IMG/VR virus record: IMGVR_UViG_3300028388_004315
Location: 1-29,363 of that record
Length of the DNA: 29,363 nucleotides
Source of the DNA: a virus
Strand: one strand, 5' to 3'
Part shown: positions 1 through 22,142 of the stretch, piece after piece
Layout of the letters: every line of letters starts with the position of its first letter
Position numbering within the stretch: the first letter of the stretch is position 1
The notes under the pieces: model-generated
Told to the model about the DNA's origin: nothing
Database searches by the model: none
The model's input: the letters and a program-made list of their open reading frames with translations, nothing else
Program-made: the position numbers and the translations under genes

Positions 1-681
1 TAGCGTGCGGTCAGATTGAATTGACGGAGCAATATCATTCACGAAATCATACAGGTTTTGTTCTGATTTCGATGGTCCAGACAAGGAACATTTCGGGCAG
101 CCAATTCCGCGCATATGGTCAGACGGGATTTGATTAAAAATTCCGTGTTTCGGGCAATTTATTTCTACTTTTGTTTTATTTCCTACGTAAGATACGTTTT
201 CATAGCTATATTTACTGTCGTGGGTTTCGCCCATTCTCTTTTTTACTTCGTCTTCGTCTAAGGTAAGGACAGTTTTTACTTTGTCTAATCTACATTTTGG
301 GCAGCCGTGACCCGCATAATGATTTGCCTTTGTTTGTAGAAATGATCCGTGCTTAGGGCAAATTATCTTTACTTTCGTGTGTGCTGAACACTCTATCATG
401 GAAGAATAAACGTATTTGCCTCCGTGAATGAGGGAGAAATCTGAAATCCATTCTGTATTTGGTTTTATCCTTTTCTCCGCAGACTTTATCGCACCACATC
501 TTGGGCATCCGCTGCCGAGATAGTGGTCTTTGGCGTTCTGAACGAATATACCATGTTCTTCGCACACAATATTTACTGAATACCGGGCACCGTTAAAACT
601 ATTTTCTATGTATTCGTAAGCACCCCCGTGAACTTCACGGGAGCGCTTTACAAAATCTATGAATGATAGTTTTTTAGGCAC
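1..681 (-). CDS. Zinc-repeat homing endonuclease, EDxHD/Vsr-like (partial, C-terminus outside window)
   Basis: The frame is open from a GTG at 681 to the left edge (227 codons), so the C-terminus is missing. The visible part has three copies of a treble-clef-like repeat of about 55 residues: an HGxxYxY start, then CxxHGxFxQ, then H(Y/M)xGxGCPxC. The best copies read CPKHGSFLQ and CPKHGIFNQ. After the third repeat comes SKSEQNLYDFV and a dR residue pair, which matches the first helix of the Vsr-like EDxHD nuclease domain of phage homing endonucleases (family of I-Bth0305I); the remaining catalytic residues lie beyond the edge. The GTG overlaps the nrdJ stop by one base (TAGTG), so translation is probably coupled; no clear Shine-Dalgarno is seen. 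The DNA is visibly more AT-rich than nrdJ exteins, as expected of a mobile gene. The repeat family is confident; the nuclease class is inferred from the short visible start of the domain. Confidence 0.75.
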   Translation of the reverse strand, partial: MPKKLSFIDFVKRSREVHGGAYEYIENSFNGARYSVNIVCEEHGIFVQNAKDHYLGSGCPRCGAIKSAEKRIKPNTEWISDFSLIHGGKYVYSSMIECSAHTKVKIICPKHGSFLQTKANHYAGHGCPKCRLDKVKTVLTLDEDEVKKRMGETHDSKYSYENVSYVGNKTKVEINCPKHGIFNQIPSDHMRGIGCPKCSLSGPSKSEQNLYDFVNDIAPSIQSDRTL

Positions 682-3638
682 TAGCGGATGGGGCAGGCTC
701 CACCTGCACATTGGTCGTCTTCGATTGTTGCATCCATCATGTCCGTACCAGTAAAGTTGACGGGGCGTAGAGTCCTTGCGTAGGATTCGTGCTGCTCTTT
801 CGTCACAGGAGTTTGAGGCAAATACGGGTAGTTTAGCTGTTTTGCCACAGCCTTTGGGTCGCGCACCATCGCAACAGGGTCCGGACGGTAAAGGAACGAC
901 ACGCCCACGTAGCTATCCCAGTTCTCCGCCAGCCAATCAACGATGTCCTGCACCTCGTCTGGGCTGTAGTAGATCGTGATCGAGCAGTTGTGATCGACGT
1001 AGTTCTCTTGCAGGAGCTTGTAGCGCTCAAGCTGAGACACCGCGCTTTCTTGGTTCACCTCGACCATTGTTCCATCAACGTCAACCGTGTCGAACTCGAT
1101 GCCGTTGTACTCGACCGGAATCACAACGATCTTCGCCATCTTATCGAATGGGTGTGGTTCGGTTCGGTAGCCAGCGTCCACAACAGCTTTCAAAAGAGGA
1201 TCATCCGCCGCAACAATGACCCGCACTTCAAGGTAACGTCCAAGCGGAAGGTGTGCGCCGGACGCAACTTCGTCGCCCACGAGACCAAAGACTTTCGACT
1301 GTGTGCCGGATGGCTTGACAGTGGTGGTCAGGTGGGGGCGAGGCGTGCCCAGTTCGTCTGCCATGCCGTTGGCACCATCATGCGCAATGCGGCGAAGGTC
1401 TGACAATGCATCCTTGTCTTTGTGGAACTCCCAGCCGACAATGCCGGTCAGTCCGACGCCACACAGGCGCAGGAACTCGTTCAACTCGTGCCACGTGCGT
1501 TGTAGAATGCCGTCATCCAAATTGACACAAGTCTGGCGGTAATTGGCGCGCGCCACCAACCAAATGGCACGGTGTAGTCCTTCTTCGTCGCCGTTGAATC
1601 GACTCACCGCAACCTCGACAAGGTTACAGAACGACTTGTCTCCCAAGAGAATTTCTGCGCAGGGGTTTACACCCTTGAAGTAAGGCGCGCGCTTCATTGC
1701 GGCCAGCGCGTTGATGAACCCCGGCTCTGACCCACCGCCCGCTTCGATCATGCGGAAGATTTTCTTCAACTCGCGCTTCGTCGGCTTGTGGTAGAACAAC
1801 AGGGAATTGTTCGACATACCCCGGTGCCACTTGCCATTCTCGTTTGCCCCCTTCTTTGCGAGCGCGAATTCTTCCCATTCCGGCTCACCGTATGGGTAAA
1901 GCGCGATCTCAGCAGAGCGTCGGGAGGACAAGATCGTTCCAAGCCAGTTCTCGATGTCGAGAATGTCTATGGCGGAAAGAAGCTGCCCAGCCGAACGGTT
2001 CATGACCTCGACAATGCCTTCGATTGCCTGTGCAAGCTGGTGGTCACCAGACGAAATCCAGCCGTATCCAGACAGGCGATAGCCTGCGGGACGAATTTCA
2101 GAAAGGTCGATAACGAGCTTCTTTGCGGTGCCTTTGAATGCAAGCAGCTTCCCGAAGAACTTTGCCCAAGCTTCCGCACTGTCTCCGACGCGGATGTACC
2201 AGACACCGGTCTCCCTGTCGAATTCTTCAAGGTTATCCGGCGCGCCTTTCACGGAAGGGTCTGAGATTGGGTTCCCGTTCGCGTCTTTTGGCAGCGTCTT
2301 CTCTGACCGTATGACTTCGACTTCGGAAATGTGGGCGGTAAAGCCATTCAACACGCCTACGTTGGATTTGAATCCGACGCCACAGCCTTGCAACAGCAGC
2401 CAAATCGTGTCAACGACATCGTGAACCGTTTGTACTTCACCAAACGCGCAGTTTCCGCTAACAATACTGTTAGGTAGGACGAAAGAGTGATCATCCTCTA
2501 CTGTGAGACACCAACAATCTTGATTTTCTGCTGAAACAACTTCTTCTACGCGCCACAACAGTTGTTTTGTAGACGTTGTAAATCTTATGTCGTATCCTTT
2601 GCGAACTCCGAAATTTGTTTCTTTTTCTGTGTAAGCGTCAGATGTAACGTAAAGACCAAACACGGGGGCGAAGGTAGTCACGAAATTAGCGGCTGCTTCG
2701 TCTGAGCAGAAGATTCCGCTAAATCTTGTTTCTCCACGCTGGATTTTCTTACTTCCGTCCGCGTCCAGATAGCCCCTCAGAAACGCCTTGATTAGGCGAA
2801 TTTCTTCACCTTCATCAGGTAGTGTTTTCAGATAGTGGCCTGTGTATACAAAAGGATCATCGCCACAGCTAGGTGGATATGAATGCCCAAATCCTAGAGA
2901 CACAAAACGATCCAGATATTCTTCTTTTTTACCGCACAAACGAACGCGGCTGGTTTCAGATTCTCCTGATTTTGCCACCGAACCGTCTCCGTATACAAAA
3001 CCATAGGCCCAGTAATACTGTTCATCCGTAGGCGCTGAATCGTAATCCCAAGAAAAAAAGTCGCCCTCCGGCGCTGCGTGGAGTTTCATTCCGGGGGTTA
3101 GATCAGACGCAATTACCCTAGTACCGTCATTTAGAATCCAAGTATGATCCACACAAGAATTCACCTCTCCGCGCATCTTATGGCGAGACAGTTTTATATT
3201 GACCATTTCCCGCTCACCAGCGTACTTTGCTACGGCGGGCTTCCAATTATCTTCGTGAGTCAGAACCGTGAATGACTCTCCATCTGAAACATCCTCGAAT
3301 GATGTGACTCCTGTTTTAGCAATAAATTTTGTATTGGCGGGTAGCGGATTAAACTGTGACGCTTCCCGTTCTTTTGCGATGTCTGTTCCGCCAAGCCAGC
3401 GTGTGCGCCCAGAAACGGTTACCTTTCGAGCCATGAAAAGCTCGTATAGTTCTTCAAGTTCGGCTTTTTGGGCGAGGTCAAGCGGTCGCCCTTGCGCGCG
3501 TTCCCACAGCCATGTTTGGTGGTCGATAACCCGACGCCAAGCCTGTTCCGGGGTTTCAAAAACGGTCCCATGCTCGTCTAGGGGCCGCAAGTATGTGCGG
3601 CGTTCAACGATCTGGGCGAGAACGCTTTGCTGCGTCAT
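681..3638 (-). CDS. nrdJ: Class II (adenosylcobalamin-dependent) ribonucleotide reductase with intein
   Basis: Reduces ribonucleotides to deoxyribonucleotides using adenosylcobalamin to generate a thiyl radical; oxygen-independent and a single polypeptide. The precursor is 985 residues from the ATG at 3638; removing the 299-residue intein leaves 686, normal for phage NrdJ. The motif NPCAEILLG (660 = thiyl Cys, 662 = Glu) is intact, as are the redox Cys at 397 (the residue just after the intein), Cys671 in FCNLVEV, and the C-terminal CxxxxC pair (977 and 982). An in-frame TTG lies five codons upstream, but the ATG has GGAGAG seven bases before it, so I chose the ATG; GGAGAG overlaps the TTG itself. 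A 170-base upstream gap carries promoter-like sequence. No nrdA/nrdB or thioredoxin gene is in the window. Family assignment is very secure. Confidence 0.95.
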   Translation of the reverse strand: MTQQSVLAQIVERRTYLRPLDEHGTVFETPEQAWRRVIDHQTWLWERAQGRPLDLAQKAELEELYELFMARKVTVSGRTRWLGGTDIAKEREASQFNPLPANTKFIAKTGVTSFEDVSDGESFTVLTHEDNWKPAVAKYAGEREMVNIKLSRHKMRGEVNSCVDHTWILNDGTRVIASDLTPGMKLHAAPEGDFFSWDYDSAPTDEQYYWAYGFVYGDGSVAKSGESETSRVRLCGKKEEYLDRFVSLGFGHSYPPSCGDDPFVYTGHYLKTLPDEGEEIRLIKAFLRGYLDADGSKKIQRGETRFSGIFCSDEAAANFVTTFAPVFGLYVTSDAYTEKETNFGVRKGYDIRFTTSTKQLLWRVEEVVSAENQDCWCLTVEDDHSFVLPNSIVSGNCAFGEVQTVHDVVDTIWLLLQGCGVGFKSNVGVLNGFTAHISEVEVIRSEKTLPKDANGNPISDPSVKGAPDNLEEFDRETGVWYIRVGDSAEAWAKFFGKLLAFKGTAKKLVIDLSEIRPAGYRLSGYGWISSGDHQLAQAIEGIVEVMNRSAGQLLSAIDILDIENWLGTILSSRRSAEIALYPYGEPEWEEFALAKKGANENGKWHRGMSNNSLLFYHKPTKRELKKIFRMIEAGGGSEPGFINALAAMKRAPYFKGVNPCAEILLGDKSFCNLVEVAVSRFNGDEEGLHRAIWLVARANYRQTCVNLDDGILQRTWHELNEFLRLCGVGLTGIVGWEFHKDKDALSDLRRIAHDGANGMADELGTPRPHLTTTVKPSGTQSKVFGLVGDEVASGAHLPLGRYLEVRVIVAADDPLLKAVVDAGYRTEPHPFDKMAKIVVIPVEYNGIEFDTVDVDGTMVEVNQESAVSQLERYKLLQENYVDHNCSITIYYSPDEVQDIVDWLAENWDSYVGVSFLYRPDPVAMVRDPKAVAKQLNYPYLPQTPVTKEQHESYARTLRPVNFTGTDMMDATIEDDQCAGGACPIR
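2451..3347 (-). mobile_element. Intein in NrdJ, class 3-like with Pro1, LAGLIDADG endonuclease
   Basis: Protein-splicing element of 299 residues, NrdJ precursor residues 98-396, between SQFN and CAFGEV. It sits directly before the redox-active Cys, which doubles as the +1 nucleophile. The first residue is Pro (codon CCG, 3345-3347), which cannot start splicing by the usual N-S shift. Block B reads CVDHTW, with Trp two after the His; block F reads CWCLTVEDDHSF, with Cys at the class 3 nucleophile position; the end reads SIVSGN, so the usual Thr is Ser and the penultimate His is Gly. The centre has both LAGLIDADG motifs (GFVYGDG and LRGYLDADG) with both catalytic Asp present. The segment is more AT-rich than the flanking gene. 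Boundaries are secure because the joined extein restores a standard NrdJ sequence; the splicing class is inferred. Confidence 0.92.
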
Positions 3639-3730
3639 GTATTTTCTCTCCAAGACAAAAGGAATGCATACCGCAGTGTTGGTGCGGCTGCATGTGATGT
3701 AGATTGTGGATAGCCTTCAGGCGTTTTTGT

Positions 3731-7591: not shown

Positions 7592-10003
7592 TTACGTTAC
7601 CACGACCGTGAGGTCTTTTGCGGCACGGGTAATTCCGGTGTACAGCCACCGCGAACCCTGATCCCTAAATACACCACTTTCGTCGTGTACAACAACATCA
7701 TCCCATTCAGAACCCTGAGATTTATGAACGGTCAGCACGTGACCAAAGTCCAAGTGCTCGCATTGCGCCTTCGCCGCATACGCGGCTTTTGTTGGCGCGG
7801 AGTACGAATTTTGTTGACGGAACACGTGTTCCTCAAAGATCGGCTGCGCACACGTCAACTGATATTGTAGCCCGTCTGCGTCGTCGTCAATAACGTCGAG
7901 CGTTATTCGTGCATTTCCGTTCTGCAAATCTCCGTGATCACCGATATTGCGGAGGATCGACCCATTGACAAGCCCCGGGTGCTTCTTGGAATTCCGACAA
8001 ACCAAAAGTGGTTCATCAGCCATGGGTCCGGTTTCTGTGATGCCCAACGCCTGCCTGATTTTCTTTGTCAGCTTCCAGCGAGTTTTGTGGGTGCCGCACA
8101 ATACCATCGCATCGCGGTCAAGGTCGAGCGTGACGTTATCATCGCGGCGTCGAATGACGCGAACGCCTTCGCCGTAGTCACCGACCTTCAAGTCTTTTCC
8201 TTGGCGAGCCATGGTGGCAAGCTGGATGATCGGATTGTCGGTGGCTTGCCGGTGAATCTCAGTCAAAAAGACGTTGGGGTCATCAAGGTTAAACCCCCAC
8301 GGCTCGCCCACAGGTGGAAGCTGCCCCGGATCGCCCAGAGCAAGTATCGGACGACCGAACAGGGCAAGGTCTTCGGCAAGCCTCGTGCCCACCATCGAAG
8401 CCTCGTCAACGACAAAGAGTTCAACGTCAGGCGATATTTCATCTTCTTGCTTCAAGACGAAAGATGGACCTTCGCTGTCCATTGCTTCGCGCAGAGCGTT
8501 TTCTAGCTTTGCCAAGTGTCGGTCAACTTGGTCGAGCTTCATCGCTCGTATCTGTTCGTCGTGATGCTCTTTCCCGATTTGGCCCTTACTTGCAATCCAA
8601 TCGCGGTGCAGGTCTACCTGATCAATCTCACGCTTGATACGGTCGGCCTGCATGGCTTTTGGCGTATAGATCGCCTTGTGTATTGTAGTCGCAGGGTTGC
8701 CCCATCCGTCTGCGCGAAGTTTGCTGGTCAAGACTTTTGCGGCTTTGCCGGTCGGTGCCATGAACTGAACCTTATCGGGGTTTAGTCCGATGTGGTCAAT
8801 CATTGCTCCTACACAGGTCGAATTGTGCGTAACAATGTAATCGTCTGTGAAATAAAGCCCGTCTTCGGCGTCCACAGTGATGCATTGCTGAAACACGTCT
8901 CCAACATATTCAACGGATTTGATGTAACGACTTGGAGGATTCTTTTTGGCAGGACTCCACTTTTCATGCTTACGTTTAGTGTAAAACGGGTTATATGGCA
9001 CCTTTACGCTGACGGAATATTCTTCCTTTCCTGTTCTCGTGCGTATGGATGTACGCACAACGGATGTGCCGCCCAGTGATCTAACAAGCCTTTGAAAGTC
9101 CAAAGCAAGCTGGTAGTTGTTTGAACAAAAAGCTACTCGGTTACGTGCCCCAATTGTTCCATCCGAGTCCATCAAACCACGCAATAGATTCCACCGATCC
9201 TCAAGATCAGACGTTATGTATATTTCAGGAATAAGTTTAGACTTTCCCGGAACACGGAGTCCGAGGCTTTCCAATGCCTCGGTAACAGGGTTTCGGGCGG
9301 TTGTGCCTTTACCGGCACTAAGCCGGTATTGTATGCAACCTCTCCCTTTGGTAGATGATGAAAATGACACGCCCGCTGGAAGGTGTGCTAGTACCCTGTC
9401 TGCAATGTCCATCTCTGTATCTGCCACGGTTATGGCAGGCGTATTGCCGTGCAGATAACCGTCTCCGAGAAGAACGCCAAGAACATACGGGTCTAAAGGA
9501 AGCGTGTTCTTTGAATGGGTCGCCGCGTTAAGTGGAATCCGGAATCGCATATCGCCAGAGGACTTCAAAACTCCCAATTCTAAAATTTTTTCGAGCGACA
9601 TTACGCGCCACCCCGCACGCTGTGTGTAGACCTTCCACAAATGATTCAAACAACACCGTGTTTCAGAACCATCTCGAAACGTTATTTTATACGCTGGCTT
9701 TACGCCTTGCGGATGTATCGCAACAACCTTCGTCGTACCATGCGTCGGATGTAAGACCACGGTACCTACCGAAACGTCGCCCATAGCCACACTGCCGTCC
9801 GGCGTCATTATACGGCAGTCTAAAGGCTGTGCCTTTCCTGAACCAGCGTAGCCGCAGAACGTAAATGTCTGTCCGTTGCTTGCGTGGTCGTATCCGTGCG
9901 TGTATCTTGCTTGCATGAATTCCCCGCGCAAGGAGTCTGCATCGTTATACCACGATGCAGCCTCCTTCACGGCGGCGAACTGGTGGTCGGTGAGTGTGAC
10001 CAT
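7592..10003 (-). CDS. RecD/Dda-like SF1 DNA helicase with intein
   Basis: ATP-dependent DNA helicase of superfamily 1B, expected to move 5'-3'. The precursor is 803 residues; the spliced form is 466. The Walker A motif GYAGSGK (51-57) is split from its Ser-Thr (395-396) by the intein. Later motifs are intact: Walker B LFVVDEAS with Asp533-Glu534, ALGDPGQLPP (motif III, Gln561), LTVHKSQGSEWDDV (motif V, about 757-770) and LYTGITRA (motif VI). The helical insert at 450-510 is charged. The closest types are T4 Dda and RecD2, with a UvrD-like C-terminal domain. Its ATG has GGAG eight bases upstream. A hairpin and promoter-like element lie in the 73-base gap before it. It probably acts in replication start or recombination. 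Confidence 0.92.
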   Translation of the reverse strand: MVTLTDHQFAAVKEAASWYNDADSLRGEFMQARYTHGYDHASNGQTFTFCGYAGSGKAQPLDCRIMTPDGSVAMGDVSVGTVVLHPTHGTTKVVAIHPQGVKPAYKITFRDGSETRCCLNHLWKVYTQRAGWRVMSLEKILELGVLKSSGDMRFRIPLNAATHSKNTLPLDPYVLGVLLGDGYLHGNTPAITVADTEMDIADRVLAHLPAGVSFSSSTKGRGCIQYRLSAGKGTTARNPVTEALESLGLRVPGKSKLIPEIYITSDLEDRWNLLRGLMDSDGTIGARNRVAFCSNNYQLALDFQRLVRSLGGTSVVRTSIRTRTGKEEYSVSVKVPYNPFYTKRKHEKWSPAKKNPPSRYIKSVEYVGDVFQQCITVDAEDGLYFTDDYIVTHNSTCVGAMIDHIGLNPDKVQFMAPTGKAAKVLTSKLRADGWGNPATTIHKAIYTPKAMQADRIKREIDQVDLHRDWIASKGQIGKEHHDEQIRAMKLDQVDRHLAKLENALREAMDSEGPSFVLKQEDEISPDVELFVVDEASMVGTRLAEDLALFGRPILALGDPGQLPPVGEPWGFNLDDPNVFLTEIHRQATDNPIIQLATMARQGKDLKVGDYGEGVRVIRRRDDNVTLDLDRDAMVLCGTHKTRWKLTKKIRQALGITETGPMADEPLLVCRNSKKHPGLVNGSILRNIGDHGDLQNGNARITLDVIDDDADGLQYQLTCAQPIFEEHVFRQQNSYSAPTKAAYAAKAQCEHLDFGHVLTVHKSQGSEWDDVVVHDESGVFRDQGSRWLYTGITRAAKDLTVVVT
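8822..9832 (-). mobile_element. Class 3 intein in the RecD-like helicase, LAGLIDADG endonuclease
   Basis: Protein-splicing element of 337 residues (helicase precursor 58-394), inserted in Walker A between GSGK and ST. Residue 1 is Ala. It shows all three class 3 marks: Trp123 two after the block B His (NHLW), Cys374 in block F (FQQCITV), and Thr392 before the final His-Asn (VTHN). The +1 residue is Ser. Two endonuclease motifs are intact: LGVLLGDG and LRGLMDSDG. It is clearly homologous to the SNF2 helicase intein across its whole length. The mechanism would be attack by the block F Cys on the N-terminal junction, as defined for the mycobacteriophage Bethlehem DnaB intein. Boundaries are certain because splicing rebuilds GSGKST. 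Confidence 0.95.
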
Positions 10004-12828: not shown

Positions 12829-15003
12829 TTAGTGAGTTTCTGCCCACGTCATACCAATATTGGCTTCCGCTGCAATTGGGCACTTAAAGCCAAAATATTC
12901 CCCAGCTTTTGGGGCCATTTCTACAGCAATTCTTGCGGCTGTGTCTGCCAAATCTTCGCGGACGGCAATCTGAATTTCATCATGAGACCACGAGCAAAAT
13001 GCATATTCTGCCTCTGGATGGTGCTCCCAACCTAAGTCATAAAAGGCATCGTCAACCAACAGGCACCACTTCTTGGCAAGAAGCGCCCCATCTGATTGGA
13101 GCCTAAGATTTAGAGCAGAATGCTTGGATCGCGTAAACAGTCTACGTCCGTCAAGACCAGCAATCGTGCCAGAATTCAGCCGCATTTCTTTGTGGATTGC
13201 CTTGATTGCTTCTTTTAGGGACGGCATAGCCGCCATAAGCTTCGCACGAAGTGTCTTGCCCAGTGCCCTTTGACGTGTCTCGGATGCAAGAGGCTCGACA
13301 ATTGATCCAAGCTTGGCGTCCCCTCCGCCATACATTAACGCGTACAGTGCCCTTTTTGCAACACCACGGCTAACGCCAGCTAGGTCTGCATTCTTCTGGT
13401 GGATGTCTCCGCTCAGAACAACGTCTACGAGTTCCCCCGCATCGAAGGGATAAGTAAGATTGGCAAGGCATCTAAATTCTACACCCGACTGGTCTGCGCC
13501 AACTAACTTGTAACCCTTGGGAACCGTGAAAAGCTCTCGGCAATCCCATCCGTGATCGCCTTCGCGGCCACGAACAATGATCTTCCACTCACCTTTTTTG
13601 TCGTTCCACTTCGATTCTACATGAGTGCCTTCTTTCTTGTGGCGCTCCACAATTGCCAAGCCCTTGTCGTAGTCCTTCGGTTCCAGTGGGTTGACGCCGG
13701 GGACCTGAGACACGTTCGGCGCAGCGTGTGTGGCACGTCCCGAAACGGTTCCGCCAACATTCACACGTCCGTGGATTCTCTGATCCTTGCGGACCAGTTT
13801 CAACCACCCGTTCTTGCCATCGACGACCATGCCGATGCGCTTTTTGTAGTAGAAAATTTCCGCCAACGTTTCCGCCAACGGGATGTGGTCTACAAGGTTA
13901 CGCAGAATTTCGTCATCAACGCGGGCGTTGCCCTTCTCAGTGAAGTCCTGTGGCGTCCATCCATACATGTGAGACAGCCGGTCCACAATTTGCTGGCGGC
14001 TGTTTGGATTGAATTCGCGCAGTTCGACTTTGACGAAGGGGCACCCTTCTTCAACGGAACCATTGACTTTCTTGTATTCGCCAGCTTCCGCATACTTTCG
14101 TATGCTTTTAACGCGGTTCATTGACTTTTTTGGAACCGTTACATTGCCCCAAGTGCGTCGTTCCGTACTTTCGCCGTGATCTGGCTCGATTACGTCTTCG
14201 CCATGCCACCGCGCCGGTCGGAACCACGTTCCAATCGCGTCTACCGCTTTCTCGTAGAATCTGGCGTACTCTGTTTCCAATTGTTCCGCCAGTTTTTCGG
14301 CCTTCGGCAGGTCGAAGTAGAACCCATTGCGCTCCTGCTGAATCATCAGGGCGTGAATATTATGCTCGATGCTGATCGCTTCTTGCGACCAGTTCATCTG
14401 CTCAATCAAATCCCACAGTTCTTTGTTGACTTCAACGTCGTTGACGCAGTAATCATGCATGTCTTCATTCCACTCGCCCCAAACGTAGCGGTGGAGTTCT
14501 TCGGCGGTCGGTGGTTCGAGGCCAGCTTCCTTGTGTTGTGCCTTTAGGGCAGCCTCGCGTTCTTTCTTATAGTCGCCTTTGTGTTTACCAAGGCGCTGAC
14601 CCCAAGCTTCCAAGCCCTGCAAACCGATCAGGCGACCTTCTAGGTCTCCCTTCGCAGCCATCCGGAAGTCTTTTTCCTTGACACCTGCAAAGCACATCCG
14701 AGACATTACGAGTGTGTCGATGATGCGAGCGCTTGGTTCGAACCAAGGATAGATCAACTGGATTGCAGGAATATCGAAGTCGAGAATATTGTGTCCCGCC
14801 AACAATTCAGCTTCCATGAGAAGCTTGACGCCATCCTCAAGGTCATTTTCGTCGGGTGTGTTGACGTAATCTACAATCTCGCCTGTGTCGATATCCATGA
14901 TTACGATGCAATGGATTTTGTCCATCGCAAAGATGCCTTCGGCCCCTTGTTCTTCCAAGAGGCCGTTGGTTTCAATGTCGAAAATCAGGCGTTTGAATGA
15001 CAT
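12829..15003 (-). CDS. polA: Family A DNA polymerase with 3'-5' exonuclease
   Basis: The replicative polymerase of the phage, 724 residues. The exonuclease domain carries IFDIETNG (Asp9, Glu11), GHNILDFD (Asp75) and YCVNDVEV (Tyr185, Asp189). Polymerase motif A is ADQSGVEFR (Asp504), motif B is RGVAKRALYALMYGG (Arg546, Lys550, Tyr554, Tyr558) and motif C is SHDEIQ (His674, Asp675, Glu676). There is no 5'-3' exonuclease domain, as in T7-like enzymes. The residue equal to E. coli Phe762 is Tyr554, as in T7 polymerase. No intein or intron is present, although this gene type is often invaded. The start overlaps the metallophosphoesterase stop (TAATG). Confidence 0.95.
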   Translation of the reverse strand: MSFKRLIFDIETNGLLEEQGAEGIFAMDKIHCIVIMDIDTGEIVDYVNTPDENDLEDGVKLLMEAELLAGHNILDFDIPAIQLIYPWFEPSARIIDTLVMSRMCFAGVKEKDFRMAAKGDLEGRLIGLQGLEAWGQRLGKHKGDYKKEREAALKAQHKEAGLEPPTAEELHRYVWGEWNEDMHDYCVNDVEVNKELWDLIEQMNWSQEAISIEHNIHALMIQQERNGFYFDLPKAEKLAEQLETEYARFYEKAVDAIGTWFRPARWHGEDVIEPDHGESTERRTWGNVTVPKKSMNRVKSIRKYAEAGEYKKVNGSVEEGCPFVKVELREFNPNSRQQIVDRLSHMYGWTPQDFTEKGNARVDDEILRNLVDHIPLAETLAEIFYYKKRIGMVVDGKNGWLKLVRKDQRIHGRVNVGGTVSGRATHAAPNVSQVPGVNPLEPKDYDKGLAIVERHKKEGTHVESKWNDKKGEWKIIVRGREGDHGWDCRELFTVPKGYKLVGADQSGVEFRCLANLTYPFDAGELVDVVLSGDIHQKNADLAGVSRGVAKRALYALMYGGGDAKLGSIVEPLASETRQRALGKTLRAKLMAAMPSLKEAIKAIHKEMRLNSGTIAGLDGRRLFTRSKHSALNLRLQSDGALLAKKWCLLVDDAFYDLGWEHHPEAEYAFCSWSHDEIQIAVREDLADTAARIAVEMAPKAGEYFGFKCPIAAEANIGMTWAETH

Positions 15004-16124
15004 TACAGATTCACACGTGCGGAGGCGACTTCGCCCTGTTCCTTATCGTAGGTGAAAGACATCAAGCAACGGTTAGAGCCGTAGGCGTTGCTGAACGCAT
15101 GAACGTCTCTCGGGATGATCGTGCCCACTGACCGGAACAACATTCCGGCAAGTTCTTTCGCCCACTCGTGGTGAACGTGTCCGCTGAACGTCACACGGTG
15201 TCTCGTGTTGCCCCACATCTTTGGCCACTCGTTTGCCACAAATGGAAGAAGGCGTTCGGGTTTTGCGCGGTCTCCGTGGTGGAACACGAACATGTTCTGC
15301 CCGTACTGGTGGCAGTAGAATTCCGAGGCGCTGTCCACGATTTCAACGTCTTCGCAGTCTCGGTAATGCTCAGCCAGCGCAATCGTGACTGCGATGTGCG
15401 TCGTCATGTCGTGATTGCCCCGGCATCCGCGATAAACCACTTTTGGGTACTTCTGGCGTAAAGCGTCAATTGCCCATTTCATTGCGGCGACGGCGCGACG
15501 AACTATTATGAAATAGCGGCTGTCCACGTCAAGCTGATGCCCGGACTGTGGCGTCACGTTCTTTTGGTCGTCGTTGTGGGTGAGGTCGCCCAACTGTGCC
15601 AAAATGGCGACAGATGCATTCGGCGTTCGCGCGACAAGTGTTCCAAACGTATCCTCGAAGACCTTGACGGCCTTCTTCGTGTCCCAATCGTGCCCGACTT
15701 CTTCTCGATCTGTAAGCAGGCCCATGTGCAAATCCGCAACAGGAAAAACGCAACACGTGTTGCTGGCAAAGGAGTCTTTTTCAACGATGCGCGGCGGAGG
15801 GGGAACGTCTTTCATCGCTTCTTTGATCGCGTCAGCGATGCTCTGGGTCTCGATTTCGGGGCCGTCCTGTTTCCAGAACACCGAATCTCGGGACCCATCT
15901 GGGTGCTGGATTATCCGCCAGCCGTGCTTTGCGCTTGAAATGTCTAGGCCCGTGGCCTCGATTGCTGCGGCGTGGCCCACTTCGGCGTCTTCCCACAGGA
16001 GTGCTCGGTTGATCAACCGGCGAGCGGTTGACTCATTCACTCCCATCTCGCGTGCCACAGCGCTTTTTGTCCCAAGTTTCTTGTACAATTCAAGCGCGTG
16101 TGCCTGACGATCCGACATTGACAT
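15003..16124 (-). CDS. HTH-metallophosphoesterase fusion (nuclease or phosphatase)
   Basis: 373 residues. Residues 5-42 form a helix-turn-helix (SAVAREMGVNESTARRLINR). Residues 120-330 form a calcineurin-like phosphoesterase with all motifs: DLHMG (Asp131, His133), GDLTHND (Asp180), GNHD (237-239), HHGD (282-285) and GHVHH (315-319), enough for a two-metal site. Related phage proteins are often annotated SbcD-like, but no SbcC partner is here. The N-terminal HTH suggests DNA targeting. Start: ATG at 16124 with GGAG about ten bases upstream, inside the end of the HD gene. It lies directly before the polymerase. Confidence 0.88.
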   Translation of the reverse strand: MSMSDRQAHALELYKKLGTKSAVAREMGVNESTARRLINRALLWEDAEVGHAAAIEATGLDISSAKHGWRIIQHPDGSRDSVFWKQDGPEIETQSIADAIKEAMKDVPPPPRIVEKDSFASNTCCVFPVADLHMGLLTDREEVGHDWDTKKAVKVFEDTFGTLVARTPNASVAILAQLGDLTHNDDQKNVTPQSGHQLDVDSRYFIIVRRAVAAMKWAIDALRQKYPKVVYRGCRGNHDMTTHIAVTIALAEHYRDCEDVEIVDSASEFYCHQYGQNMFVFHHGDRAKPERLLPFVANEWPKMWGNTRHRVTFSGHVHHEWAKELAGMLFRSVGTIIPRDVHAFSNAYGSNRCLMSFTYDKEQGEVASARVNL

Positions 16125-16776: not shown

Positions 16777-19635
16777 TTAACTGTCGAGTGCCTGCACAAT
16801 TATGCTCATTTTCTCAAGGATGGCGACGGCCATGTAAGCTTCTATTGACCCGTCTACGAGCAGGTATTGGGCGATGACGGCATTCTTTTGTCCGTGACGC
16901 CACGCGCGGTCTTCCGCCTGTTCCATAAGTGCGGGTACCCAGTCAAGTTCCGCAAAGACGACAAAACGGGCGCGGGTCAGGGTCCAGCCGACACCCATTG
17001 CCAAAATGTTGCCGATGATGACATCGTATTCACCGGCTTGAAATCCGTCTACGCGGGCTTGTCGTTTCTTGGTGGACACGTCTCCCGTGATCACCGCCAC
17101 ACGAAGACCGGCTTTTTCCAAGCGCTTTTTTAGCTCTGAGATCACAGACTTGTGATATGCGAATGCGATGACCGGCTCGTCGCAGGCAATAAGTTTGGTG
17201 ATATGGTCCGCAACCATGCCGACCTTTGCCAGCGCGACTTCCTCCCGCGCAGCGCTCATTTCTGTGAACAACAACTGATCGGGAGCGGACAGAGTTTTTA
17301 CGGCTCTGTCCAAGTCCGGTTCTTCGCTGTCTTGTTTTTCGAGAGCTTCGGCAATACGTTCTGACAGGCCCTCCATCATCGTGATGTATCGGAATGGGCT
17401 GTCGTCTTCGATCCCCAGCATATTTTCGTACTGAGCGAGGGCGGACTCTACGCGGGTCTTCTCTTTCTTTACGGGCGCTTCAAGTTTGTCCTGCGGCAGG
17501 ATGATCGGCTCTCGGGTCTTGTCCGGAAGCTCCTTTAGAACCGCACGCTTATCGCGCCGTATCATGAAGCGTTCGCGCAGGATGCGGCTGAGTTCTTCGA
17601 GGTTTGAGGCCCCCGATGCGTCTATGCCAAAGTGCCCGTCTTCTGCATCGCAATATGTGTATGCATAGTTTTCCCAACTTGACCCAAGGCCCTTGGGGTC
17701 ACAAGCTCGAATCAAATTCCACAATTCAATTGGCCGAGACAAGATTGGTGTTCCAGTCAGAAACAGAATCCGGTTCGCGCAAATTTCTTCATACGTCTTT
17801 GCGTCACGTACTTTTATGCCGTTCTTTCTTTTTGCGGGGCGTTGTCCGCCGAATACGCATTGTGTTCGTAGTGCGCCAGAAGTTTTCAGCAAATGGCACT
17901 CATCGGCAATCATCAAGTCCCAAGTAATTGACTTAATCTTGTCATCGAACGGGTCCAGCATATCGTAGTTAATGATGACTACATCTGTGTCGGGCCAAAA
18001 ATGCTCGGTCCACGTTCTGTAGACAAGCTTATTGTTTTCGTCCCGTACGCGCTCGCCGTTGTCGTCCAGCACGTGCTTACGTTTGACAACGCTCTCAGCA
18101 ATTCCAACTGTCTTCCCGTGAACATCCCATTTGATCCACTCGCGCATCCAGTTGATCTTTAGAGATGCGGGGCATATGACCAGCACCTTGCTGGCGGCTA
18201 CGACATTATGTACGCCGATTGCCTGAATTGTGTTATGGGTGACGGTGTAGTCTCGCGTCACATATAAACGATCTTCTGCTTCCACGGAAATACACACATG
18301 CTCGTGTTCTCCGCAAAGTTCTACAGATTGAATAAAACGTTTGGGCCCATTTTTATGACTGGGCCACCATTGCTCAATCTTTCTGGGAAGTGAAAATGGA
18401 CACAAATCGTTTAATTTTACGTTGACTTGATATTCAACAGGCTTTCCTTCATGGGTTCTATCATATATCCGTACATTAGCACTGCCTCCGAGAGACCAGA
18501 CTATTCGTTGAACATCTTCGGCAAGCCTCTGGCAGGTGGAATGGAAAGTAATGCGATTCTTTGTGGCACTGCCATTGGTGTCCATAAGACCCTGCAAAAG
18601 GGAAAGACGCTGCTGTGTTGATCCTGTGAAATATTCCTCTGGAATATGTTTGTCGTAAGACCCACAACGGAGTCCCAGCCGAGAAAGCTCCGCTACGTAT
18701 TCAGAGTGAGGATTCTTGTAATTACGCGAAATGGCATATCGCGTACAATAGTTAGGATTAGCATACTTTTTTAAGCGAAAATCTAGCCGAAGTTCTGATT
18801 CTACCCGAGAAGCAGTGTGTTCACTTCCCTTGGGACACGAAAATACTGGTGAACATTCTTTCAGTGCTCCATCCCCTAAAAGCACACCCAGAGTGTAAGG
18901 ACCAATAAAAAAGTCTTTTTCAGTGAATTCGACAGGCGTAACAAGTGGAATATCCCACTTGTTCTTTCCATCAGACGTTTTTAATCCCCTATTCATTAAT
19001 TCTTTGAGAGATTTTACAGTAAAGCCTTGATGGCGTTTGCGGCGATTGCTGTCTCTTACTGCCCACAAATGTTCGTTATTACAGCGGGACCAAGACCCAT
19101 CTCGAAATGTGACTTTATAGGTTTTAAGAACGCCTTGCGGGAAAACTCCTGTAACTTTCGTTGGCTTTCCACTGGAACCAATAACTTGATCTCCAACAAC
19201 CAATTCCCCCACAGTTCGCCACCCTGTAGGGGTAAGAACTGGCTCATCTGTGGGAGAGCTTTTACCCAAACCGGGCGGGTCTGCCACTAGCGTTTTGTTG
19301 TGTTTGACAGCATATTCAATTCCGGCACGCTGAAACGGCAAATAGTTTAGACCGTCCGGAGCCGGGAATTCCGCATCCGTATCTTCTGCCCACGACGCCG
19401 CCACGATTTCGGCAGCAATTGCTTCGGCGTTATCAAGATATTCGAGTGCCGCCCCTATCGCGTATTCGTAGAGGTCTCGGGCTTTGTCTTCGTTCGCGGT
19501 TGTCCACGCCTTTGTTGTCTTGTCAAAAACCCATCCATTTCGCTTAAAAATCAAGCGCTCAGCATAGGAACAGCCCGACTTGCCATTGGGCAGTCGGGTT
19601 GTGAAAACTCCGTCTACTCTGTCGAACTGGGGCAT
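16777..19635 (-). CDS. SNF2-family helicase/ATPase with intein
   Basis: SF2 translocase on double-stranded DNA; phage members are thought to help replication or recombination (compare UvsW and SMARCAL1). The precursor is 952 residues; the spliced form is 609. Walker A DPPGLGK (119-125) continues with Thr469 after the intein. Later motifs: ADECH (Asp578-Glu579, with Cys in place of the usual Ala), TGTP (627-630), and motif VI QAEDRAWRHGQ (906-916). The first 90 residues hold a small domain before the helicase core. The start shares a base with the stop of the exported-protein gene (TAATG). Confidence 0.92.
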   Translation of the reverse strand: MPQFDRVDGVFTTRLPNGKSGCSYAERLIFKRNGWVFDKTTKAWTTANEDKARDLYEYAIGAALEYLDNAEAIAAEIVAASWAEDTDAEFPAPDGLNYLPFQRAGIEYAVKHNKTLVADPPGLGKSSPTDEPVLTPTGWRTVGELVVGDQVIGSSGKPTKVTGVFPQGVLKTYKVTFRDGSWSRCNNEHLWAVRDSNRRKRHQGFTVKSLKELMNRGLKTSDGKNKWDIPLVTPVEFTEKDFFIGPYTLGVLLGDGALKECSPVFSCPKGSEHTASRVESELRLDFRLKKYANPNYCTRYAISRNYKNPHSEYVAELSRLGLRCGSYDKHIPEEYFTGSTQQRLSLLQGLMDTNGSATKNRITFHSTCQRLAEDVQRIVWSLGGSANVRIYDRTHEGKPVEYQVNVKLNDLCPFSLPRKIEQWWPSHKNGPKRFIQSVELCGEHEHVCISVEAEDRLYVTRDYTVTHNTIQAIGVHNVVAASKVLVICPASLKINWMREWIKWDVHGKTVGIAESVVKRKHVLDDNGERVRDENNKLVYRTWTEHFWPDTDVVIINYDMLDPFDDKIKSITWDLMIADECHLLKTSGALRTQCVFGGQRPAKRKNGIKVRDAKTYEEICANRILFLTGTPILSRPIELWNLIRACDPKGLGSSWENYAYTYCDAEDGHFGIDASGASNLEELSRILRERFMIRRDKRAVLKELPDKTREPIILPQDKLEAPVKKEKTRVESALAQYENMLGIEDDSPFRYITMMEGLSERIAEALEKQDSEEPDLDRAVKTLSAPDQLLFTEMSAAREEVALAKVGMVADHITKLIACDEPVIAFAYHKSVISELKKRLEKAGLRVAVITGDVSTKKRQARVDGFQAGEYDVIIGNILAMGVGWTLTRARFVVFAELDWVPALMEQAEDRAWRHGQKNAVIAQYLLVDGSIEAYMAVAILEKMSIIVQALDS
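18232..19260 (-). mobile_element. Class 3 intein in the SNF2 helicase, degenerate LAGLIDADG motif
   Basis: 343 residues (precursor 126-468), inserted in Walker A between GLGK and T. Residue 1 is Ser, +1 is Thr. Class 3 marks: Trp191 (EHLW in block B), Cys448 (HVCISV in block F) and Thr466 (VTHN). The first endonuclease motif, LGVLLGDG, is intact, but the second reads LQGLMDTNG, with Asn at the catalytic Asp position, so DNA cleavage is probably lost on one strand. Highly similar to the RecD-like helicase intein and more AT-rich than the host gene. Removing it restores GLGKT, so its ends are certain. Confidence 0.95.
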
Positions 19636-20841: not shown

Positions 20842-21035
20842 AGCATTCTAGACAGGTTGATGCAGAGCATCTCGCGCTCGGGTGGGACGCCGATGGTATT
20901 GTAGTCGAGCGTCCGGATTGCCACACCGATGTCTCCCGGAAGGTCTTGAATTGCCGCGTTCAATTCCTGCTCGGCCTTACGAACACGGGACACGGCGGCA
21001 GTGTCTTCTTCGGACATGATCATAGTTTCGCCCAT
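20838..21035 (-). CDS. Hypothetical protein, 65 aa
   Basis: Not recognised. Helical, charged N-terminal half (SRVRKAEQELNAAIQDL) and a C-terminal part with Val/Ile and Leu. There is no signal sequence. The ATG at 21035 shares a base with the ligase stop (TGATG); internal ATGs at codons 5 and 7 are alternatives. It overlaps the GTG of the DUF1643 gene. Confidence 0.6.
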   Translation of the reverse strand: MGETMIMSEEDTAAVSRVRKAEQELNAAIQDLPGDIGVAIRTLDYNTIGVPPEREMLCINLSRML

Positions 21036-22018
21036 CAGATTTCCTCACACTTTGAGAGCCACCATTTTCGGGCGGTGGTTGTGACGTGCTTTGATACGTC
21101 TTTCCATTCAAGGCCCGATTCTTCAAGCTCCACCGCAGACTCTTTCTTGATGTCCTGCCCGATCCACTTGAGGAAGTCACCAGTGCGGCGCGGTTCTGCC
21201 ACGCCGTCGCAGCCCTCAGACACTGCTTGCTGGCACCGGGCCTCGGTGACGAACATTTCCACAAACGCATGCACGCTCTCAGGCACTTCGACTTGTGTCG
21301 GGGCGCTGGGGCCTTTCTTGACCGAGTGTGCTTCGGTTTTGACTTTGAACGTCAGCGTGGAATATAGATCACGGTCCATTCCAAGCGTGGCGTCGTCACC
21401 ATCGAGATCAGTGATGGGAGACACAACCAAGCCTTTGCCGGGGCCGTCCACATCAAAGATTCCGTAAATGAATGGATCGCGCTCACCGATTTTTTCGACC
21501 GCCTGTGAAAGTTCGCCACCTAATAACCGAAGCTCGTCGTCATCACCGAAGTGAATGGGATTCTCCCAGACCATATCCCACGGCAGGACCAACACGTCAT
21601 CCAGATCCGGGATCATCTGACCGATGAGATCGGGGCAAGTGAACATTTCATCATCAACTTGAACGGCGAAAATGAAGAAGTATTTCTGGTTCAAGCCGCA
21701 AACCGCATCGCCTTTCTGGATGCCCTTACCTGCCCATTCTCCGAAGAATGTGACGGTGCCTACCGGTAGATCAGCATTGGCCCAATCATCCTTGAACGGC
21801 TCAAGCCATGCGGCGAACCCTGAGTTGTCTTGTGTCGGTGTGATGTCGCGGGACCGGGACTGAGCGTGTACTGTGCCGTCTTCCTCGATGCGGACAGCAG
21901 CGTTCGTTCCATGGAGTTCGATCTTTGCGCCGAAACGAACTTCTGCCGGTTTTTCGAAACGATTCTGTCCGCGAATGACGTGGGCCAGTGATTCAATGCT
22001 GGGGAATTTTGTGAACAT
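21035..22018 (-). CDS. Rnl2-like RNA ligase family protein with swapped catalytic residues
   Basis: 327 residues from the ATG at 22018 with GGAGAGG upstream. It matches the Rnl2 type in order: FPSIESLAHV start, motif I LHGTNAAV (35-42), motif III FGEWAGKGIQ (92-101, close to T4 Rnl2 FGEFAGPGIQ), motif IIIa YFFIFAV, motif IV GLVV (196-199), and motif V FKVKTEAHSVKK. Such enzymes seal RNA nicks using ATP through a lysyl-AMP. But residue 34, two before the His-Gly, is Glu (codon GAA, 21917-21919) where T4 Rnl2 has the nucleophile Lys35, and residue 195 is Lys (AAA, 21434-21436) where motif IV has an essential Glu (204 in T4). It may be inactive, or use an altered mechanism. It is the first large gene after the rII terminator. 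Confidence 0.85.
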   Translation of the reverse strand: MFTKFPSIESLAHVIRGQNRFEKPAEVRFGAKIELHGTNAAVRIEEDGTVHAQSRSRDITPTQDNSGFAAWLEPFKDDWANADLPVGTVTFFGEWAGKGIQKGDAVCGLNQKYFFIFAVQVDDEMFTCPDLIGQMIPDLDDVLVLPWDMVWENPIHFGDDDELRLLGGELSQAVEKIGERDPFIYGIFDVDGPGKGLVVSPITDLDGDDATLGMDRDLYSTLTFKVKTEAHSVKKGPSAPTQVEVPESVHAFVEMFVTEARCQQAVSEGCDGVAEPRRTGDFLKWIGQDIKKESAVELEESGLEWKDVSKHVTTTARKWWLSKCEEI

Positions 22019-22019
22019 A

Positions 22020-22142
22020 CTACCTCTCCTTTTCCCAAGGACCACCATCCCTGTAGCAGGATATGATCTGGTCTTTGCTGCGCACGCTTTGTGCTCTTAG
22101 TTGTTGAAGGGTCATCCCCGTCCTCGCAGCGATGACCTTCAT
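22020..22142 (-). CDS. Possible 40-aa ORF before the RNA ligase
   Basis: ATG at 22142 to TAG at 22020. The product begins MKVIAARTGMTLQQLRAQSV and ends EKER. The region around residues 5-25 resembles a helix-turn-helix start, but it is too short to be sure. Its last codons contain the ribosome site of the ligase (GGAGAGG), and its ATG overlaps the stop of a smaller ORF (ATGA), a pattern shared by the real genes here. Confidence 0.4.
   Translation of the reverse strand: MKVIAARTGMTLQQLRAQSVRSKDQIISCYRDGGPWEKER

Follow-up and report, generated by a model that had tools for sequence, protein, structure and literature searches.

An Rnl2-type RNA ligase encoded on a phage genome fragment has its two key catalytic residues exchanged for one another. 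At the position of the AMP-accepting Lys of motif I it has Glu34, and at the position of the conserved motif IV Glu it has Lys195. The gene lies at 21035-22018 on the minus strand of a 29,363-base IMG/VR virus fragment (the window, by which we mean the whole stretch of DNA analysed), which belongs to a large phage of the RcXuper/DSS3P8/RpAliso type, whose members infect Rhodobacterales. The exchange is well established in the sequence as given, and confirmation from raw reads is still needed; the window is identical to its source record, an identity that provides no independent check of the bases. The reading we prefer, at roughly even chances, is a charge-compensated ligase that is unable to form the canonical Lys-AMP and has been tolerated or repurposed. 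Normal ligase chemistry has probably been lost, or possibly rebuilt.

The open reading frame (22018-21035, minus strand) is intact and encodes 327 amino acids from an ATG start. It is preceded by a good ribosome-binding site (AGGAGAGG, 22023-22030, minus strand), and its TGA overlaps the ATG of the downstream gene, coupling the two. PHROG 548, annotated as "RNA ligase", matches the protein over its full length (E 1.2e-46), and profile alignment to T4 Rnl2 (2hvq) gives an E value of 1.4e-25. The Pfam model PF09414 (RNA_ligase) gave no match for the window protein but matched 10 of the 11 aligned proteins. The AlphaFold model has a mean pLDDT of 92.8, its best PDB matches are the T4 Rnl2 entries 2hvr, 2hvq and 1s68, and its predicted fold contains both the nucleotidyltransferase fold and the Rnl2 C-terminal domain. 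By homology and predicted fold, the protein is an Rnl2-type ligase.

The neighboring genes (rIIA, rIIB, Rnl2, small genes, SNF2-type helicase, HD hydrolase, PolA) are arranged as in RcXuper/DSS3P8/RpAliso-type phages. No close DNA match to the window was found among deposited phages. The RcXuper/DSS3P8-type ligases (UVD36526.1, AMO44148.1) and that of contig L012 are likewise encoded downstream of rIIA/rIIB. They are 50-75% identical to the window protein and share its domain layout and its other motifs, but they have Lys34 and Glu195.

Elsewhere in the window, a metallophosphoesterase-like gene at 15003-16124, with an N-terminal helix-turn-helix-like stretch, had no match in any related phage stretch searched and on that basis appears to have been inserted recently between the HD and PolA genes. 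An NrdJ-type ribonucleotide reductase is encoded at 681-3653, as it is in the nearest relatives G001 and G004, whereas the annotations of DSS3P8 and RpAliso list class I alpha and beta subunits instead. In-frame inteins are apparent in this reductase, in a RecD-like helicase gene (7592-10003) and in the SNF2-like helicase gene (16777-19635). Most homologues match the exteins alone, while contig G004, the record of L015, matches the SNF2-like gene from end to end.

Profile alignment places the nucleophile of T4 Rnl2, Lys35, on Glu34 (GAA, 21917-21919) within motif I (KIELHGTN, residues 32-39, 21902-21925), and the Glu of T4 motif IV (EGYVLK) on Lys195 (AAA, 21434-21436) within motif IV (GKGLV, residues 194-198, 21425-21439), all on the minus strand. 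This upholds the assignment proposed in a sequence-only reading of the same DNA. Relatives have KIKLHGTN and GEG(L/W/V)V at these sites, and the window protein lacks both the nucleophilic Lys of the KxHG motif and the motif IV Glu. The homologue alignment also bears out the earlier claim that the remaining motifs are intact on the same strand: motif III (GEWAG, residues 93-97, 21728-21742), the motif IIIa region (KYFFIFAV, residues 112-119, 21662-21685) and motif V (FKVK, matching FKxK, with Lys225 and Lys227, 21338-21349). T4 RNA ligase 2 (gp24.1; 1s68, 2hvq) shares its fold, motifs III, IIIa and V and its C-terminal domain with the window ligase, and differs in the two residues that are exchanged. 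Compared with L012, codon 34 has changed from AAA to GAA and codon 195 from GAA to AAA; as had been suggested, each change is a single base, and both are transitions, one from A to G and the other from G to A. Members of the nearer clade conserve Lys32 alongside the normal Lys34, and Lys32 was therefore not acquired as a replacement.

How unusual is this arrangement? Homologues were gathered from phage records, from IMG/VR and from contigs of bacteria and archaea, and duplicates were removed. Lys34 and Glu195 are found in every one of the 147 non-redundant homologues that cover both columns, including the nearest, L012, at 74% identity. Neither the exchanged pair nor either single change occurs in this set, and so the co-variation that the sequence-only reading had envisaged was not seen. 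A subfamily with a different catalytic Lys or a new nucleophile can also be dismissed, because the relatives all keep Lys34 and Glu195. The survey rows outside the 147, which at first resembled exceptions, are gene fragments or ligases broken by inteins or other insertions and not substitutions. Two degenerate-pattern scans of IMG/VR viral contigs recovered no ligase with the E-form of motif I; the two matches of the second scan are tail-fibre-like proteins.

The departures are also confined to these positions. An alignment of 52 homologues contains 22 near-invariant columns, and the window protein differs at exactly two of them, positions 34 and 195. A rough model, set up post hoc, in which two random missense changes fall among these 22 sites gives p ~3.5e-4 for the exact exchange and p ~0.01 for any reciprocal swap. 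Because all 147 homologues carry Lys and Glu and the departures fall in only 2 of 22 columns, the pair is, as judged from these alignments, a derived exchange in a single lineage and not a subfamily trait. It is known from one contig, and records very near the window may be missing from the homologue set, so that a close sister carrying this pair may exist.

Several relatives have Rnl2 genes that are interrupted close to the same motifs. In L029:1652-3858 and L070:2351-3900 (also L071 and L072) the gene is broken inside motif I. The first open reading frame runs through KLHG into the N-terminal part of an intein (CFSKN...), and the second joins the C-terminal part (...VHN) to SNAGV and the remainder of the ligase; in L029 an endonuclease-like frame (2169-2969) lies between the halves. 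From its sequence, the arrangement in L029 and L070 looks like a split intein, or "fractured gene", in the active-site motif. In L064:2974-5288, and similarly in L063 and L206, a GIY-YIG-like frame interrupts Rnl2 just before motif IV, and this L064 interruption matched no Rfam intron family.

One objection is that the contig or record carries an error at one base or at both and that the phage really has Lys34 and Glu195. The sequence-only reading had named close homologues with Lys and Glu, together with read errors, as the outcome that would undo it; the first part holds, since close homologues do have both residues. The ligase is known from a single metagenomic contig, the normal residues are otherwise universal among homologues, and each change involves one base. 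Even so, we consider an artefact unlikely. Two independent errors would have to fall on exactly the two catalytic codons and yield a reciprocal exchange, which is very improbable, and no single damage process produces changes in both directions. Furthermore, the gene has no frameshift or stop, and conserved sites are seldom altered in the other window genes for which enough orthologues exist, which speaks against wholesale poor sequence. Slightly more departures were seen in rIIA, RecD and PolA than in the other genes, and some of those in RecD stem from the way the sequences align at the edge of the intein.

The gene does not appear to be decaying. It contains no stop or frameshift, and between the window and L012 the ligases differ by 0.16 nonsynonymous and 0.77 synonymous differences per site. 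Relative-rate tests against L012 with eight outgroups gave p values of 0.26-1.0 and thus no acceleration (with L013 as outgroup, 24 versus 26 unique changes). With neither a disrupted frame nor relaxed constraint, pseudogene decay is ruled out. Because silent-site bias is strong and the rate has not accelerated, these comparisons suggest that either the exchange is recent or the protein is still constrained. Purifying selection does not date the exchange, and it could also fit an active enzyme.

Work on related enzymes indicates what the exchange may have done. TbREL1 is closely related to T4 Rnl2; its motif IV Glu is the sole acid reasonably close to the catalytic Lys87 and joins an electrostatic network with it, and the K87R substitution abolishes ligation (PMC2100368). 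The corresponding motif IV Glu of Pmar-Lig binds a water molecule that sits on the catalytic metal (PMC6698739). The two side chains are adjacent in published structures and simulations, and by analogy with these homologues the exchange would leave the ion pair in place but take both the nucleophile and the metal-side acid out of their usual positions. That the residues are neighbours in solved Rnl2-family enzymes supports the earlier idea of a compensated pair. The accompanying argument, that a dead enzyme would lose one residue only, is weak: stability lost through one charge change can be restored by another.

A more radical interpretation is that the nucleophile has been relocated, with Lys195 (or motif V Lys225, or Lys32) accepting AMP and Glu34 taking over the metal-side role in a working ligase. 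The protein is under normal constraint, the exchange is exactly reciprocal and the motif V lysines are intact, all of which would suit such an enzyme. There are also precedents. For the "deviant" Rnl2 of Diplonema, DpRNL, a similarly rewired site with a non-canonical AMP-accepting Lys has been proposed from modelling, in which the motif V-region Lys175 is the nucleophile and the motif I Lys is paired to Glu158 (PMC4599027). In the WNK1 and POMK kinases the catalytic Lys has migrated, the essential residue being missing from its motif and supplied from elsewhere (PMC10211241). Both parallels are indirect, however: DpRNL, a model only, retains the motif I Lys and the motif IV Glu, the residues that the window ligase has exchanged, and the kinases, whose activity has been demonstrated, have an unrelated fold. 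No relative shares the proposed arrangement, and metal geometry suggests that a motif IV Lys would sit near the metal site and not in line with the leaving pyrophosphate. We regard a relocated nucleophile as improbable. Its strictest form seems a shade less probable still: two point mutations would have created a mirror-image site that carries AMP on Lys195, the Lys of covalent catalysis having shifted to motif IV and a matching Glu having taken its place in motif I.

It is also conceivable, if doubtful, that the protein no longer charges itself with AMP and instead seals ends adenylylated by another ligase. The second ligase found in relatives could supply such ends, but abortive 5'-App ends are usually rare. 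MthRnl behaves in this way: without its motif I Lys (K97A), steps 1 and 2 (self-adenylylation and AMP transfer) are abolished while full step 3 activity on pre-adenylylated donors is kept (PMC3514331). However, the motif IV Glu helps to hold the step 3 metal (PMC6698739), and this contribution is lost in the window ligase unless Glu34 substitutes for it.

We return to the charge-compensated ligase as the preferred explanation. According to this model, the nucleophile of motif I (Lys, now Glu) and the metal-site acid of motif IV (Glu, now Lys) have traded places, and a retained Glu34-Lys195 ion pair would allow the fold, the RNA-binding surface and the C-terminal domain to survive. Canonical Lys-AMP formation would be lost and Lys195 would be placed where the catalytic metal is held, such that ATP-dependent ligation is expected to be absent or very weak. 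The protein might then be a young pseudo-ligase, either tolerated through a probable second ligase of the Rnl1 type or kept for binding RNA ends. The L012 record and two others encode an Rnl1-type ligase that adjoins kinase genes and whose KxDG motif is intact. The window ends before the location of Rnl1 in these relatives, and by analogy with them its phage probably has such a backup. Because neither of the two defining catalytic residues is in place, annotation of the window protein as an active RNA ligase should await experiment.

Covalent ligase chemistry centres on the Lys of motif I and the Glu of motif IV, and no relative examined lacks either residue. Their natural double exchange, which took a single base at each codon, offers a ready-made way to ask if this active site can be inverted. 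A dead but compensated enzyme is the best reading, although we hold it with no more than balanced confidence; a relocated nucleophile, a step-3-only ligase and a consensus error are the other live options. If step 3 survives, the protein could serve as an adenylylation-defective ligase. More broadly, the exchange bears on how pseudo-enzymes keep their fold after losing a nucleophile, and on whether RNA ligases that are catalytically dead can be retained by phages in some other role.
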